Source: an uncultured Opitutales bacterium
GTDB taxonomy: Bacteria > Verrucomicrobiota > Verrucomicrobiia > Opitutales > Intestinicryptomonadaceae
Assembly: GCA_944389885.1 (NCBI GenBank)
Contig: CALXNZ010000002.1
Location: 62,001-126,000, forward strand
Length of the DNA: 64,000 nt
Direction of reading: 5' to 3'
Positions 987 to 8,502 of the stretch are shown here, piece after piece. Positions within the stretch are counted from its first letter, which is position 1. Each line of letters begins with the position of its first letter. Both the position numbers and the translations under genes were made by a program. Below the pieces are notes generated by a model, which ran no database searches, was not told the origin of the DNA, and saw only the letters and a program-made list of their open reading frames with translations.

Positions 987-2405
987 ATGCCCCAGGAAAT
1001 AAGACAGACTGTCAAGACGGAACAGGGCTTGGCCATAACGCCGCAGCTCAAACGCAGTCTGGACATTCTCCAAGCTCCCGCTCTCGAGGTGGAAAAGATT
1101 ATAGAGAATGAGATTCGGACAAATCCGCTTTTAGAGGAGGTCCCCAATGAGCCGAACCCTGCTCCCGAAATGCTTGGAGACGGTGGGGAGCATGAAGATT
1201 TTGAAAGTTCCGAAGAAAAAGTCCCGGCAATTCCAAAACGCGAGAGGCGCGAAGGGATAAGCTATAGCGGTTCCTCACTTGACTCGGACGCCCAAGAAAA
1301 GCGCGATTTTTTCATAAGCTCCATACCTGACAAAATTTCGCTGCATGAATATTTGCTAAATGAGGCCGCCATAGACGCGCCGACTCCCGGTTCGCAAGCC
1401 GCATTCAAGGAATTGGCGGGATTTCTGGACGAGAGGGGATTCCTGCCCGGCGACGCCGCAGAACTTGTCCGAGGCAAGGGATTTTCAGAATCGGACGTGA
1501 ATGCGGCCCTCGAACTTCTCAAGAATTGCGAGCCCGCGGGAATAGGAGCCAGAGACATGCGCGAGGCTTTAATGCTGCAGCTCGAGAGAAAAGGCATGGG
1601 GAACTCCCTTGCGTACAGGATTCTTGAAAATCATTTTCCGCTTTTATTAAAGCGCAAAGTCGAGGAAATCGCAAAGTCTGAAAACTGCAAAGCCGATAAA
1701 GTCGAGAAGGCCATATCCGACATATCCAAGCTTAACACGTCGCCCGCGTACGGGTTTAAGCCTGAGGAATCTGAAGCCATACTGCCGGACCTTGTATTTT
1801 TCAAAGACGACAACGGCGAATTTGACGCGACCCTATACGAGGACTATATTCCCAAACTCCGCATAAACCCCGAATACAGGCAAATGGCCGCCAACGGCAA
1901 TCTCGACGAAGAAACCGAGGAATATATACGCCAAAAGATACGCGACGCGAAGTCTGTCATGGACGCATTAAAACAAAGGCAGGCGACTCTCCTGAAGATA
2001 GGCCTGGCAATATTGTCTAAACAGCTCGATTTCTTTGCGAAAGGGCCCTCTGCCCTAAAACCTATGACAATGCAAGACGTGGCCGACGTTGTGGAATTGC
2101 ACCCCACGACCGTCGGGCGGGCCATCTCCGGCAAATACGCCGACACTCCGTTCGGCATAGTGGCCTTAAAATCCTTTTTTAGCGGCGGATATGAGACCGA
2201 TAAAGGGCAGGAAGTAGCCAGCGGCTCCGTAAAGGAAAAAATAAGGCAGATAATAGACGCTGAATCCCCCCATAGCCCATTGAGCGACGCTAAAGTCGCG
2301 GAAATGCTTTCGCGCGACGGATTAAATGTGGCGCGGCGAACGGTCGCCAAATATAGGGACGAGCTCGGTATAGCCCCAAAAGCTCTTAGAAAACGCTTCA
2401 AATGA
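987..2405 (+). CDS. rpoN: RNA polymerase sigma-54 factor
   Basis: This is sigma-54, which directs RNA polymerase to -24/-12 promoters and needs an AAA+ enhancer-binding activator to open them. The N-terminal Gln/Leu-rich region I is present (LAITPQLKRSLDILQAPALE), followed by an acidic linker, the core-binding domain and the C-terminal DNA-binding domain. The RpoN box appears near the C-terminus as ARRTVAKYRDELGI, close to the consensus ARRTVAKYRE. The length of 472 residues is normal. I chose the ATG at 987 over an upstream TTG because region I starts immediately after it. The stop overlaps the ATG of the next gene (ATGA), so rpoN, tsaB and the alr homologue probably form one transcript. No enhancer-binding activator lies in the window. 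Confidence 0.95.
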   Translation: MPQEIRQTVKTEQGLAITPQLKRSLDILQAPALEVEKIIENEIRTNPLLEEVPNEPNPAPEMLGDGGEHEDFESSEEKVPAIPKRERREGISYSGSSLDSDAQEKRDFFISSIPDKISLHEYLLNEAAIDAPTPGSQAAFKELAGFLDERGFLPGDAAELVRGKGFSESDVNAALELLKNCEPAGIGARDMREALMLQLERKGMGNSLAYRILENHFPLLLKRKVEEIAKSENCKADKVEKAISDISKLNTSPAYGFKPEESEAILPDLVFFKDDNGEFDATLYEDYIPKLRINPEYRQMAANGNLDEETEEYIRQKIRDAKSVMDALKQRQATLLKIGLAILSKQLDFFAKGPSALKPMTMQDVADVVELHPTTVGRAISGKYADTPFGIVALKSFFSGGYETDKGQEVASGSVKEKIRQIIDAESPHSPLSDAKVAEMLSRDGLNVARRTVAKYRDELGIAPKALRKRFK

Positions 2406-3052
2406 ACACGTTCACATGCAATAGAATTCTGTTGAGCGATCCGTGCGGGACAAGAGTGCGCATGGCAATAGCCGAGCGCGGGGAAGTTGTCGAGGAAATC
2501 CTAACCGGCGAACCCGCGATGGAAAGTTTTGCGGAATCGGCATCTCAAATATGCTCCCGCTGCGGAATTCGGATAACCGATATAGAATCATTCGGAATTG
2601 CGCAGGGGCCCGGCTCCATGCTGGGAGTGCGCATAGCAAGCGCATACTTGTCAACAATAGCAAAAAGTTTTGATAGGGACATTTTTGTTTGGGACTGCCT
2701 TGAAACCTCTATTTACGCGCTTGCGGAAAAATATTCCCTCTTAGATTTGGAATGCGCGGCGCCATCGCGCAAGGGATTTTTGAATTTGGCAGTTTTGCGC
2801 GGTGGAAGGCTTGTATCGGAAGAGGAAATAGAAATCGAAAAAGCGGAGGAACTTTTTAGCCCGCATACGTTTGCGCTCAAGCAACGCCCCTGCCCTATTC
2901 TTGAAAAACTGCCGGCGGCGGATATATCGCTTGCGGAAACTCTAAAAGTTATAAAAATAAAGGATATAGCCCTGAAAAGCGAACTTCCGCCAGACGCGAA
3001 ATCGCTTTCCAAACGCGAATATGTGAAATGGAAGGATCAAGCACACATTTAA
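2402..3052 (+). CDS. tsaB: TsaB-like protein, tRNA t6A37 biosynthesis
   Basis: This matches TsaB (YeaZ), the non-catalytic partner of TsaD in making N6-threonylcarbamoyladenosine at position 37 of ANN-decoding tRNAs. The diagnostic segment is GIAQGPGSMLGVRIA, the counterpart of the usual GPGSFTGVRIG, about residues 60-75. The N-terminal phosphate-binding strand of the ASKHA fold (ILLSDPCGTRVRMAIAERG) is also recognisable. The length of 216 residues fits the family. Translational coupling is suggested at both ends: its ATG overlaps the rpoN stop and its 3' end overlaps the next gene by 25 bases. tsaC, tsaD and tsaE are not in the window. Confidence 0.85.
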   Translation: MNTFTCNRILLSDPCGTRVRMAIAERGEVVEEILTGEPAMESFAESASQICSRCGIRITDIESFGIAQGPGSMLGVRIASAYLSTIAKSFDRDIFVWDCLETSIYALAEKYSLLDLECAAPSRKGFLNLAVLRGGRLVSEEEIEIEKAEELFSPHTFALKQRPCPILEKLPAADISLAETLKVIKIKDIALKSELPPDAKSLSKREYVKWKDQAHI

Positions 3053-4158
3053 GGTGTTCCGTACGCATAGACTTATGCGCCCTGGAGCGCAATCTCGGCA
3101 AATTGAGAAGTTTTCTACCCGATACAAAGGCTTTCATGGGGCTGGTTTCTGCAGACGCATTCGGGTGCGGAGTGGAGGCGGCCGTCGTGCGCCTGATGCT
3201 GAGCGGGGCCGACGCATTTGCCGTCACAAATTCCGACGAGGGGAAATGCGTGAGAGAAGTCGGAGAAGGCTGGCCAGTGATAGTGATGAGTTCGACTCTC
3301 CCTGGAGAGGAACGCATATATTTTGAACAAAAGCTGACACCCGTACTCGTAAGCGAAGAAGAAATCGCGCGATTTGAAGAGTGCGCAATGAATATGAATC
3401 GGAATCTGCCCGTACATATGCGACTCCCCGTAAAAGGAACGGCTATCCCGTCGCCGGAAGAAGCAAAAGCAATGCTCGTAAGGCTCGAAAAATCTGAACG
3501 TCTGCGCCTTGAGGCTTTTTGCCTTCCGGGAACGGGAACGGGAGCCCCGACAGAAGGCACCATACCGGACGCGGGATTTCTGGAATTCGCCGCCTCGAGA
3601 GTAGGAAATCTCAATCTGAAACCTTACATACACCACAGCGACGTTGTAAATCTGGCAGGATTGCCTCCGGAATTTGGGCGATGCCTCAGAATAGGGCTTG
3701 TCTTATTTGGAGCAAAGCCATCGCAAAATTCTATACTGAAAGGATTTGAGCCGGAACAGGTTCTGACATTCAGAAGCTCTGTAAGCCAAATAAAAACCCT
3801 TCCGAAGGGGGCGACAGTCGGATACTCACGCAAATACACCATGCCGAAAGAATCGAAGGTGGCGCTTATATCCGCCGGATACGGCGACGGTCTCGCCCGC
3901 GGAGCCGGGGGGAAAGCCCATGTATTAATACGCGGCAAGCGCGCTCCCATAATAGGAATCGTATCAATGGATCAGGCCTCAATAGACGTGGGAAATTTCG
4001 ACGAAATAGAGGTTGGAGACGAAGCCATAATAATAGGCGAATCCGAAGGTGAAAAAATATCAGTAGAAGATTACTGCAATGCCTTATCAATAACTCCGGC
4101 TCAAGCCCTAACGTCGATAACTAAACGAGTCGCGAGATTCTATAAGACGCTCTATTAA
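3028..4158 (+). CDS. Alanine racemase homologue lacking the PLP lysine
   Basis: The 376-residue protein has the two-domain layout of alanine racemase: an N-terminal PLP barrel starting RIDLCALERNL and a C-terminal beta domain. The C-terminal half is well kept, with VGYSRKY (the second catalytic base, Tyr266), GYGDGLAR and MDQASIDV. In the N-terminal half, the family motif VVKANAYGHG reads GLVSADAFGCG, so the lysine that forms the Schiff base with PLP is Ser41 (codon TCT at 3148-3150). The usual KVDTGMxRxG motif is also degenerate (RLPVKGTAI). A D-alanine-forming racemase should not work without that lysine, so this is probably a pseudoenzyme or has a new role. A true alr elsewhere in the genome is expected. 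The start at 3028 lies within tsaB and puts 11 residues before the first family strand. Confidence 0.8.
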   Translation: MEGSSTHLRCSVRIDLCALERNLGKLRSFLPDTKAFMGLVSADAFGCGVEAAVVRLMLSGADAFAVTNSDEGKCVREVGEGWPVIVMSSTLPGEERIYFEQKLTPVLVSEEEIARFEECAMNMNRNLPVHMRLPVKGTAIPSPEEAKAMLVRLEKSERLRLEAFCLPGTGTGAPTEGTIPDAGFLEFAASRVGNLNLKPYIHHSDVVNLAGLPPEFGRCLRIGLVLFGAKPSQNSILKGFEPEQVLTFRSSVSQIKTLPKGATVGYSRKYTMPKESKVALISAGYGDGLARGAGGKAHVLIRGKRAPIIGIVSMDQASIDVGNFDEIEVGDEAIIIGESEGEKISVEDYCNALSITPAQALTSITKRVARFYKTLY

Positions 4159-4232
4159 CGGTTTAACTATTTAATTAATATATGGGGTTAAACACTTGAC
4201 TTTTACCTAATATGCACTTAGGAATATTAATC

Positions 4233-6008
4233 ATGAAACCCATTCATTTTCTAAAAAAATATTCACTTTTCATTCTCGGTTGTGCTTTACTATTTACACT
4301 TCCGGTTAAAACACACGCCCTTACGTTTCTAAAAACAAATTCCGGAGACTTGCGCTGGAGCGCAAATTACAATTGGCGCGTAATAGGCGACACCGAACCG
4401 TACGAAGCTCCCGAAACCCCTCCTAACGACAATTCCTGCAGAGTGGAAAACGAATACAACGCCTTCAGCGTTCTCGTTGACGGAGAATATACCGTAGGCA
4501 AGATGTCGTCAAACTACGATACTGGATACGCGGATCAAACTGGTACATTTACTTGGGATTTAAACTATTCCGACGGAGCCTCCATAACGCACGGGACGAT
4601 TAACATAGACGCCGCCAATTATTCCGGATACGGCATAAGTATGGCGCTTGGAGGCAACAGCCAGCCATTCATGTACTCTCAGGGCATAGTATATTCTGGC
4701 GGAGTAATAAACTACACCAACAGTTCCGATCCGGACGCGATAGTCTGGGTGCAAGTTGCCGGGAGATCCCAAAACGCCGAAGACGCGAAGATACACCATA
4801 CCAAATCTATAACATTCGATGCCCAGAATACGCTCAATATAAGCAATTATGTGTACTTCAAATACGATACCGAAGCCGGAGAATATAATACCGGAATTCT
4901 AAACATGTTCGGAACAGTCAATGTCCTGAAAGAAGAGAACGACGCCATATCATACAAGGACGTACTAATAGGCGCCTACTCCGCAACCGACTACCAAAAC
5001 ACAATATTTAATATAGGCGACCCTTCAAGATCCGCCGCAGAAAATACTACAGCAATATTCACTTGCGGTTCCTTTAAGCAAGAAGCAGCAACCGCCGTAA
5101 ACATAAACGGCGTGTTGAATGTCTATGGTTCATATCAGACAATTGCCAACAGCACCGGCAAGGCGGGTAGAACCAGTCTATATGTTGCAGAAGGCGCCCA
5201 ACTCAACATAAAATCCGGAGACACCAGCGTAAGAAACTCCTTTAACATATCCGGGACCGATGCTGTGATAGCCGGAACTGTGAATATAGACCACGGCACC
5301 GTAAAAGGCGAAATTACCAGCTCCGGAGATTATATTGGCGGGGGTTCCGTTCTCACAATCAAGAACGGAGGTTCAATTACACAGACCTCTTCAACAGGTT
5401 TGGCACTTGAATTTGTCGTAGGAGTTAATGCTACTCTAATAGTCGAAAAGGGAGGATATTTATATTCAAGGAACCAAGTTCGCTTCGGAGGCGACAATTC
5501 AAGAATAGTTTTATACCAAGAAAACGCCCTGACATCTGCTGAAGGCGTGTGGAAGGTCATAAGCAATTCCGCTGCGAATAAAGACGTATATTTGGAGTTG
5601 CATGCTAATCAGGATCTGCTGTACTTTTCATGGTGGGTGACATCCGAAACCGATACCAGAACTTTCCATGTAGATATAGGCGATGAAGTGACCCTGATCT
5701 CAATGGAATATCTCACCGAAAGCAACGGATCCGAAGGATTAAATACAGATTACAGATTTATATCGTTCACAAATTTCCGCAATAATATCATCAAAGTAGA
5801 TAACGTAAATCCATACGAGCTCGAAAGGCTCGACCAGATTTCCGCCGAAGGCTATGAAGACTTCCGATTTGACTTTGTAAACGGAGTGGACGGAACGAAT
5901 GGCTATTACTTAAACGCTACCAAGATAATCCCCGAACCCTCCACTTGCGCAATTCTAATTTCATTGTTTGCCTTATCTTTTGCCTTAAGGAGACGCAATA
6001 GGAGATAG
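4233..6008 (+). CDS. PEP-CTERM exported protein, paralogue 1
   Basis: This is a surface or exopolymer-associated protein of unknown function with exosortase sorting signals. A signal peptide (MKPIHFLKKYSLFILGCALL, cleavage near KTHA) is followed by a beta-rich, Asn/Gly/Thr-rich passenger of about 540 residues. The end is VIPEPSTCAILISLFALSFA plus an Arg-rich tail, a textbook PEP-CTERM signal. An exosortase (EpsH/XrtA-type) is expected to cleave it in the inner membrane, but none is in the window. The start at 4233 has AGGA 9 bases upstream; an ATG at 4212 would place residues before the signal peptide. It shares long colinear segments with the gene at 6736-8502, especially the last 130 residues (NPYELERLDQISAEGYEDFR), so the two arose by duplication. 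Confidence 0.85.
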   Translation: MKPIHFLKKYSLFILGCALLFTLPVKTHALTFLKTNSGDLRWSANYNWRVIGDTEPYEAPETPPNDNSCRVENEYNAFSVLVDGEYTVGKMSSNYDTGYADQTGTFTWDLNYSDGASITHGTINIDAANYSGYGISMALGGNSQPFMYSQGIVYSGGVINYTNSSDPDAIVWVQVAGRSQNAEDAKIHHTKSITFDAQNTLNISNYVYFKYDTEAGEYNTGILNMFGTVNVLKEENDAISYKDVLIGAYSATDYQNTIFNIGDPSRSAAENTTAIFTCGSFKQEAATAVNINGVLNVYGSYQTIANSTGKAGRTSLYVAEGAQLNIKSGDTSVRNSFNISGTDAVIAGTVNIDHGTVKGEITSSGDYIGGGSVLTIKNGGSITQTSSTGLALEFVVGVNATLIVEKGGYLYSRNQVRFGGDNSRIVLYQENALTSAEGVWKVISNSAANKDVYLELHANQDLLYFSWWVTSETDTRTFHVDIGDEVTLISMEYLTESNGSEGLNTDYRFISFTNFRNNIIKVDNVNPYELERLDQISAEGYEDFRFDFVNGVDGTNGYYLNATKIIPEPSTCAILISLFALSFALRRRNRR

Positions 6009-6077: not shown

Positions 6078-6607
6078 AAGATTATAGGGGACAAATTCGT
6101 AACAGAGTGAGCATAGAAAGCAGACCCGAGATAGTGGCGGAAAGATCTAGATTTGGAGATTGGGAAGGAGATTTGATAATGGGTAAAAATCACAAGGGTG
6201 CGATACTGACGCTGGTAGAGCGGCGAAGCAAGTATCTATGTGCAACTTACTTGTCGGGGAAGGATGCGAAAGCTACGAAAAATGGCGTAATAAAGTTGTT
6301 GCGCGGAATGAATGTGAAAACGATAACCTTTGATAACGGCAAGGAGTTTGCTTATCACGAAGATATGAGTAAAAGATTAAGGAGTGAAATATACTTTGCA
6401 CACCCATACACTTCTTACGAAAGAGGTCTTAATGAATACACAAATAGATTGTTGAGACAGTACTTTCCGAAGGGAATGGATTTGCGAAAAGCGACAGAAA
6501 GGGAACTAAAATTTGCGTTGAACGAGATCAACTCTCGACCGCGAAAGAGTTTAAATTGGAAGAGTCCAAGCGATTATCTTCACGAACTAAAGTGCGCCGC
6601 CCCCTAG
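6053..6607 (+). pseudogene. IS30-family transposase, 5'-truncated
   Basis: The frame gives the DDE catalytic half of an IS30-type transposase. RRRKYGIKDYRGQIRNRVSI and ESRPEIV match the linker that precedes the catalytic core. The triad is visible as Asp in GDWEGDLIMG, Asp in TFDNGKEFAYH and Glu in YERGLNEYTNRLLRQYFPKG. A full IS30 transposase has 320-380 residues with an N-terminal helix-turn-helix; here only about 185 residues remain and the DNA-binding half is missing. The frame is closed by a stop at 5999-6001, inside the preceding PEP-CTERM gene. A GTG at 6107 could start a shorter product. No pair of terminal inverted repeats was found. It is a non-autonomous remnant lying between two PEP-CTERM paralogues. 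Confidence 0.75.
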
Positions 6608-6612: not shown

Positions 6613-6735
6613 AATTAGTAAATGAATCAATAACTTTAATCTTTACAAACAATCAACAATATCTAAAAACATCTACCGTCAGTTATGCACTGGCGTTTTG
6701 AAAAAAGGAAACAAAATCTTTTAAGATACATCACA

Positions 6736-8502
6736 ATGAAAGCCCCAATTAACATACTCATACTAATATCAACATTTTCGATTTGTTATAGCGCCAATGC
6801 GCTGACTACGATAAAGACAAACAATGTCAGTGGCGGAATGTGGAGCGTCAACACGAACTGGCATATCGGAAATACTTCCGAAATCCCCGAAACTGCACCG
6901 AACAGCAATACGCTGGAAGTACAGAACGAATACAGCGCAACCAGTATGGTGGTTGACGGAGAATTCACGGTAGGCCGCATAGGGGCAAACTCTGATACGG
7001 GGCACTCTAACAATACCGGGAAATTCGTATGGGATCTCAATCCGACGGCTCCCGATGCAGACGCAGGCGTAATAAACATAGATTCTGCAACCCTTACAAA
7101 TACAGAAAATTCGGCTATAGATTTTGGGTTCCTCGGACAAAGTAAACCGGAAATATATTCGCAAAATATCACATTTTCCGGAGGTACTATAAATGTATTC
7201 GATAGCCTTGATTCCTCAAAATCAAGCGTTATAAATATAAATGGATCGTCCACAGCAGCCGAGGAAGAAGGTATAAGCTATGTGAAATCGATTACATTCG
7301 ACCTCGATAATACGCTAAATATAAGGAACAATACAACTTTTAAAGCTTCGGGTGGGGCAAACCAATACAAATCGCAAGTATTCAACCTGTTTGGCACGGT
7401 TAACGTATTTGATACCGTAGATAATGAAGTGGTCTATAAAAATGCCGGGCTCTATGCGGCAAGCCAATCGGCGGCTTACACCGGCGTAATTATGAATATA
7501 GGCGACACTTCAAAACCGGCAAATGAAAACGTAACCGCAATTTTTACATCGGGCAATTTTACTATGGGTGCAACTTCCGTATTAAACATTAACGGCACAA
7601 TGAATGTTCACGGGAAATTCACTATGAATGACGGTTCTGAAACGGCCGCCCGCACCCAGCTCAATATAGCCAAAGGTGCGTCATTAACAACACAGTCGGG
7701 CGCCCCCGACGTGAATAACAACTTTGTTTTAGGTTCCTATAGTGATACTATAATTGAAGGGTCCCTCCTTGTAAATAACAACGCCACAAAAACAACTTCG
7801 CTGACCGACACTGAAAACTCTTTGAATCAATGGGCAACTCTTACGATAAAAAAAGGCGGCAATGCGCAGTTTATTTCCGACACCGAATTGTCCGTATATC
7901 TTATGTTGAGAAATAATTCTACGTTAACCGTAGAAGAGGGAGCTTCGTTAACCGTGCGCAGCCAGTTGAGATTCGCAGGCAGCGACGCCCGCGTAAAAAT
8001 TTACGAGGCAAACGGAATAAAATCCCAAGAATATGGCAACAGATGGAAGCCCGTCATAGTGACATCTGGTGTAAAGGACGTATATATAGACCTCTACGCA
8101 AATCAAGATTGGGTATATTTATCGTGGTGGGGTGCGAACACTGAGGAATTGACTTCTACTTTCCACATATATCTTGGAGATGACGTTTCCATGATAACCC
8201 TCGATACTCTCACTGAATCGAATGGTGTGAACGGACTCAATAACGACTATCGCTTCATAATTTTAGACAATTTCCGAAACAATACAATAAAAGTCTCAAA
8301 ACTGAATCCATACGAGGCCGACTATATGGACCAAATATCGGCAGAAGGATACGAGGACTTCCGCTTCGATTTTGTAAACGGAGTTGACGGAACTGACGGG
8401 TACTGGCTAAACGCCACGCAAGTGATTCCCGAACCTGCCACATGCGTTATTTTGTGCGGATTGGCGGCTCTGGGATTCGCGGTGTTCTTCCGCAGAAAAT
8501 AA
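6736..8502 (+). CDS. PEP-CTERM exported protein, paralogue 2
   Basis: This is a second full-length PEP-CTERM protein of 588 residues, colinear with the one at 4233-6008. The signal peptide is MKAPINILILISTFSICYSA with cleavage near ANA. The passenger begins with a TTIKTNNVSGGMWSVNTNWH pattern equivalent to LTFLKTNSGDLRWSANYNW in paralogue 1, a WxxNxNW motif common at the start of autotransporter-like beta-helical passengers. The shared C-terminal module (NPYEADYMDQISAEGYEDFR, then FDFVNGVDGTDGYWLNAT) precedes VIPEPATCVILCGLAALGFA and the basic tail FFRRK. The ATG at 6736 is chosen because it opens the signal peptide; an ATG at 6685 would add 17 basic residues. A strong terminator follows. The function is unknown; matrix or surface association is inferred from the sorting signal. 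Confidence 0.85.
   Translation: MKAPINILILISTFSICYSANALTTIKTNNVSGGMWSVNTNWHIGNTSEIPETAPNSNTLEVQNEYSATSMVVDGEFTVGRIGANSDTGHSNNTGKFVWDLNPTAPDADAGVINIDSATLTNTENSAIDFGFLGQSKPEIYSQNITFSGGTINVFDSLDSSKSSVININGSSTAAEEEGISYVKSITFDLDNTLNIRNNTTFKASGGANQYKSQVFNLFGTVNVFDTVDNEVVYKNAGLYAASQSAAYTGVIMNIGDTSKPANENVTAIFTSGNFTMGATSVLNINGTMNVHGKFTMNDGSETAARTQLNIAKGASLTTQSGAPDVNNNFVLGSYSDTIIEGSLLVNNNATKTTSLTDTENSLNQWATLTIKKGGNAQFISDTELSVYLMLRNNSTLTVEEGASLTVRSQLRFAGSDARVKIYEANGIKSQEYGNRWKPVIVTSGVKDVYIDLYANQDWVYLSWWGANTEELTSTFHIYLGDDVSMITLDTLTESNGVNGLNNDYRFIILDNFRNNTIKVSKLNPYEADYMDQISAEGYEDFRFDFVNGVDGTDGYWLNATQVIPEPATCVILCGLAALGFAVFFRRK

Follow-up and report, generated by a model that had tools for sequence, protein, structure and literature searches.

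The bacterial family Intestinicryptomonadaceae (order Opitutales) encodes two paralogues of alanine racemase (Alr), here termed P and C, that have each lost one half of the Alr active site. P, encoded in the 64,000-nucleotide stretch of DNA analysed here (the window), lacks the lysine that holds PLP and retains the catalytic tyrosine; C, whose gene lies on another contig of that genome, has the reverse pattern. In our view, P and C very likely work as an alanine racemase only when joined in an obligate heterodimer, each dimer having a single composite active site. In this reading, both dimerisation and activity are predicted from the residues that each paralogue keeps. Nearly all bacteria have Alr, which is an antibiotic target and whose known form is a homodimer in which the monomers share two sites. 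In this family, a homomer has apparently been turned into an obligate heteromer by the fixation of complementary site halves in two paralogues.

Results

The gene for P is an intact open reading frame on the forward strand (window 3028-4158) that encodes 376 amino acids. Its product scores 185.5 bits against the NCBIfam model for alr, TIGR00492 (curated cut-off 168 bits), and matches the Pfam models of the Alr N- and C-domains (PF01168 and PF00842). Upstream on the same strand lie rpoN, encoding sigma-54 (951-2405), and a tsaB-like gene (2402-3052), whose 3' end contains the P start codon in a 25-nt overlap (3028-3052). The same rpoN-tsaB-alr order surrounds single, complete Alr genes in other families of the order. 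Each of the 18 readable genomes of the family, which span three genera, has a P orthologue; one further family genome, which reads N where sampled and gave no match, was left out. Both the in-frame ATG and the overlap with tsaB are identical in all 18 genomes, suggesting translational coupling.

P has diverged from Alr at several catalytic positions while retaining others. At the position of the PLP lysine (Lys39 in S. aureus Alr, Lys34 in E. coli), P encodes Ser41 (TCT, window 3148-3150, forward strand, as for all P codons below), within the motif LVSADAFGCG where Alr has VVKADAYGHG. The KxDTGMGR motif is also lost, with RLPVKGTAI in its place (3421-3447, covering the positions of Lys131 and Arg138). 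Residue 167 (3526-3528) lies where Alr has His168, which partners Tyr265', and is histidine in no P sequence (Pro in nine, Ala in five, Ser in two and Leu in two). Ala358 (4099-4101) stands at the Tyr354 position, which in these proteins is usually Trp and is Trp in C. On the other hand, Tyr266 (TAC, 3823-3825), equivalent to the catalytic Tyr265', is tyrosine in 18/18 P sequences, and Met314-Asp315-Gln316 (3967-3975), equivalent to Met312'-Asp313' and the residue that follows, reads MDQ throughout. The pocket left without its catalytic residues carries invariant residues of its own: Ser11, Phe45, Pro134, Gly168, Asp181, His203, Asp205 and Ala358. The original prediction, that P is an Alr homologue with serine for the PLP lysine and no KVDTGM motif, yet with Tyr266 and the C-terminal domain in place, is borne out on each point, as is its description of the gene as intact, joined to tsaB and free of decay.

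The loss of lysine is fixed across the family: the position is Ser in 16 of 18 orthologues, Ala in the other two and Lys in none, in all three genera. A sequencing error at this codon, with lysine in related strains, had been named as a possible refutation; with Ser or Ala at the codon in 18 separate genomes and nothing that we could count in its favour, a sequencing or assembly artefact is excluded, as is chance. It is also extremely unlikely that P is a slowly decaying, pseudogene-like remnant in which the absence of lysine has no functional meaning. The lost PLP site would fit such a remnant and nothing else does: P is intact in 18 genomes of three genera, 109 of its residues are invariant, the catalytic tyrosine does not vary, and dN is far below dS in close orthologue pairs (for example 0.046 vs 1.9, with dS near saturation), so P is under strong purifying selection.

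The second Alr gene, encoding C, lies on another contig of the same genome (contig 5, approximately 31.7-32.7 kb), unlinked to P and flanked by genes that we take, from reading their sequences, to be yraN-like and metF-like. C scores 241.2 bits against TIGR00492, well within the model. Its VVKADAYGH and KxDTGMGR motifs are in place, as are the Arg and the Asn-Ser phosphate site; the PLP lysine is present in 15/15 aligned C sequences. C is missing the hairpin that carries the catalytic tyrosine: the LPxGTxVSYGRTxxL stretch of single Alrs is cut down to a few residues in C, a deletion shared by 15/15 sequences. In addition, MDQ has become LDE in every C sequence that covers the region, making the Met312' position Leu in 15/15, and some conserved non-catalytic barrel residues have been lost. 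C has also gained an invariant histidine, absent from single Alrs, next to the phosphate-binding Asn-Ser (HxHNSA). Thus, the second canonical alr that the original prediction proposed to look for exists as a second alr, but the missing tyrosine hairpin and the change of MDQ to LDE rule it out as a canonical one.

The losses in P and C can be placed on the known structure of the Alr active site. In the S. aureus enzyme, Lys39, Tyr43, Arg138, His168, His200, Asn203, Ser204, Arg219, Ile222, Ile352 and Tyr354 of one site come from the first monomer, while the second contributes Tyr265', Met312' and Tyr284', a residue of the entry (PMC3245724). We mapped these residues in an alignment of E. coli Alr with 18 P sequences, 12 sequences of single Alrs from outside the family and, depending on the column, up to 15 C sequences (13 of them full-length). 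Asp313' was counted with the second-monomer set, as in Alr generally. C keeps all 12 first-monomer positions scored, each in at least 14 of 15 sequences. P is changed at nine of the 12: Lys39, Tyr43, Arg138, His168, Asn203, Ser204, Ile352 and Tyr354 differ in all 18 sequences, and the Lys131 position differs in 14 (as Arg), leaving the His200, Arg219 and Ile222 positions as kept. For the second-monomer set the pattern is reversed, with Tyr265', Tyr284', Met312' and Asp313' kept in 18/18 P sequences, and Tyr265' (with its hairpin) and Met312' lost from every C sequence. Both sets are intact in the single Alrs that we sampled from the order's other families. Because C retains the first set and has lost Tyr265' and Met312', and P the reverse, the losses in the two proteins are complementary, and the line between them coincides with the border between what each subunit contributes to the composite site. 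Of the features that define an Alr, P lacks the lysine and C the tyrosine, and the pair together holds both.

Conservation of the two domains follows the same division. In the 13 genomes with both full genes, identity among P sequences is 0.616 in the barrel vs 0.682 in the C-terminal domain, and among C sequences 0.677 vs 0.623; single Alrs are nearly even (0.560 vs 0.565). The crossover runs in this direction in 69/78 genome pairs, which are not independent of one another. When losses over all 135 conserved columns are sorted by domain and by the copy that suffered them, the ratios are 27:12 vs 4:8 (Fisher p 0.042), a modest contrast.

From this partition, we infer that a P-C dimer would have exactly one complete site, to which C gives its barrel and P its C-terminal domain, and that neither homodimer would have any. 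In the proposed mechanism, PLP would be held in the barrel of C by the lysine of VVKADAYGH, and the same barrel would supply the equivalents of Tyr43, Arg138, His168, Ser204, Arg219 and Trp354, and the C-terminal domain of P would insert Tyr266 and Met314 into the C site in the roles of Tyr265' and Met312'. Each P-C dimer would then hold one full two-base site (Lys and Tyr'). The opposite site, formed by the P barrel and the C C-terminal domain, would have neither base and should be dead, and P:P and C:C homodimers are predicted to lack racemase activity. Two findings weigh against the pairing: the genes for P and C are unlinked, and the losses in C extend to some conserved barrel residues with no catalytic role. 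A single-sequence AlphaFold model of P has a pLDDT of 33.5 and is uninformative. We also entertain, as an unlikely elaboration, that the dead pocket of P serves as an allosteric ligand site through which D-alanine production is tuned.

The main rival to the heterodimer is a homodimer of C in which some other acid-base group has taken over. C would be a complete racemase alone, with another residue, such as the histidine of HxHNSA, standing in for Tyr265', and P would be a regulatory or stabilising, prozyme-like pseudoenzyme that need not donate residues. C does pass TIGR00492 (at 241 bits), its specific invariant histidine lies beside the phosphate-binding Asn-Ser, and trypanosomes have prozymes that act allosterically (PMC5201418; PMC3663545). 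Such an arrangement leaves unexplained why P would preserve Tyr265' and Met312' in 18/18 genomes despite the loss of its PLP side, and why C would have lost Met312' as well as the tyrosine, and we regard it as improbable. It had been suggested from the window that P may be a pseudoenzyme with a regulatory or structural role in D-alanine supply. A role in that supply fits our proposal; a free-standing bystander beside a canonical Alr does not, and since C is missing the tyrosine hairpin that P keeps, the role of subunit fits far better than that of regulatory bystander. The suggestion of a PLP-independent activity for P gives way to the interpretation of P and C as complementary halves of one active site.

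The distribution of the two genes is consistent with an obligate pairing. P is present in 18/18 readable family genomes and C in 16/18, and C never occurs without P. The two genomes in which C was not found are incomplete in different ways: one (G018) is an assembly of about 410 contigs with 79% completeness, and in the other (G001), where the C neighbour metF and the D-Ala-D-Ala ligase Ddl are missing too, 44 of the 470 kb sampled (9%) are masked. Because of this masked sequence and the 79% completeness, neither genome is a counterexample to the co-occurrence of P and C.

The family also evidently needs D-alanine, because Ddl has been retained: strong matches were found in 16/18 readable genomes, the exceptions being the masked G001 and an 86%-complete assembly (G006). 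A search with PF01168 found no third Alr, returning, besides P and C, only YggS-size proteins and two weak matches to other open reading frames. As for a by-pass through D-amino-acid transaminase, the Aminotran_4 protein that we checked is of the IlvE type, passing TIGR01122 and not TIGR01121. With no third Alr and an IlvE-type transaminase, no candidate source of D-alanine other than P and C is visible, although an unrecognised racemase may exist. These observations bear on another explanation, that C is a different PLP enzyme, for example an aldolase, that P is a remnant with another role, and that D-alanine comes from another enzyme. A precedent lies in the Y265A substitution, which makes G. 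stearothermophilus Alr an aldolase (PMC6411801). The retention of Ddl and the IlvE-type assignment count against it, as does the persistence in tyrosine-less C of His168 and Arg219, the residues that tune Tyr265', and we judge it very unlikely.

P and C each form a single clade with full support; a joint P+C clade is neither shown nor rejected (p-AU 0.51). By domain, identity to single Alrs is 32-41% for P and 38-42% for C. Because P occupies the rpoN-tsaB-alr neighbourhood of single complete Alrs, it is to all appearances the native gene and C a relocated copy. In the simplest history that we infer, a single duplication preceded the radiation of the family, and the two copies then underwent complementary losses. 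Mirror-tree correlation between P and C is 0.915 (partial correlations 0.75 and 0.65), slightly above controls and weak evidence.

Within the order genomes surveyed, a split Alr was seen only in this family. In other genomes with an extra or low-scoring Alr match, Lys and Tyr occur together in every copy whose sequence spans both, and candidates for independent splits among two-match and low-scoring genomes either kept both residues or were assembly fragments. Some of these proteins are unusual in other respects. In another family of the order, with reduced genomes of approximately 0.7-1.0 Mb (f26), Alrs (L126, L128, L129 and L131) keep Lys and Tyr and read Met-Gly or Met-Asn at the site of the otherwise conserved Asp313; two genomes of this family (G149 and G181) carry two Alr paralogues. 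A divergent second Alr-like protein in another genome (L181; G295, C5:474993-475373) has IMKADAYGNG, GYGG and MN for MD, and is perhaps a racemase of other specificity.

Discussion

P and C belong to the same sequence family as bacterial Alr/DadX, the fold type III PLP homodimers described by TIGR00492; they share its two-domain architecture and ancestral neighbourhood, and jointly hold every catalytic residue. The difference is that the homodimers known for Alr have two complete sites each, whereas P and C each hold one half of a composite site. Two Alr paralogues per genome are also found in E. coli (alr/dadX) and B. subtilis (alr/yncD), where each is a racemase alone. For B. subtilis, YncD is listed as a second alanine racemase (PMC6522883). 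We found no published precedent for a heterodimeric or pseudoenzyme alanine racemase in the open-access literature.

Closer parallels to the proposed arrangement come from outside the Alr family. In eukaryotic serine palmitoyltransferase, the LCB1 subunit lacks the PLP lysine and keeps residues thought to be catalytic, which has led to a single-site hypothesis (PMC3794620). LCB1/LCB2 is thus a natural heterodimer of PLP-enzyme paralogues, one without the PLP lysine, as we propose for P and C, whose pairing is predicted from sequence. LCB1/LCB2 is of fold type I, eukaryotic and membrane-bound, whereas P-C would be of fold type III, bacterial and devoted to D-alanine supply; moreover, in P-C the trans-acting base has been explicitly deleted from the lysine-bearing subunit. 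The complementary residue loss and strict co-occurrence expected of a split-site heterodimer are both seen here, the latter in 16/18 genomes with incomplete data in both exceptions.

Trypanosomatid deoxyhypusine synthase is active as an impaired subunit with a dead paralogue, both of which are needed (PMC3663545), and it and the AdoMetDC prozymes resemble P-C in this combination. These enzymes are eukaryotic and unrelated to Alr, and AdoMetDC is activated by relief of autoinhibition rather than by sharing of a split site. A prozyme would also be expected to act on a partner with a complete catalytic set, and C has neither Tyr265' nor Met312'. Among fold relatives, a mixture of the Lys57Ala and Cys334Ala mutants of ornithine decarboxylase regains 29% of activity through one site (PMC3289617). 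This pair shares with P-C the type III fold and the complementary lesions, but consists of artificial point mutants rather than a fixed natural state. If the heterodimer is real, the P-C pair is the natural version of this laboratory mixing of two complementary dead mutants. It would be a clean bacterial case, with both complementary losses readable residue by residue, and would open the one-way evolution of such complexes to direct tests in E. coli. The pair also carries a warning for annotation: P and C both pass the alr equivalog model, and neither alone is predicted to be a racemase.

Other features of the window

Two similar genes (window 4212-6008 and 6685-8502) encode large proteins that are predicted to be secreted, end in PEP-CTERM-like sequences and match no Pfam model. 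Between them sits an open reading frame (6107-6607) that resembles a truncated IS30-type transposase and has a weak match to the integrase core (rve; 26.2 bits, under the Pfam cut-off).
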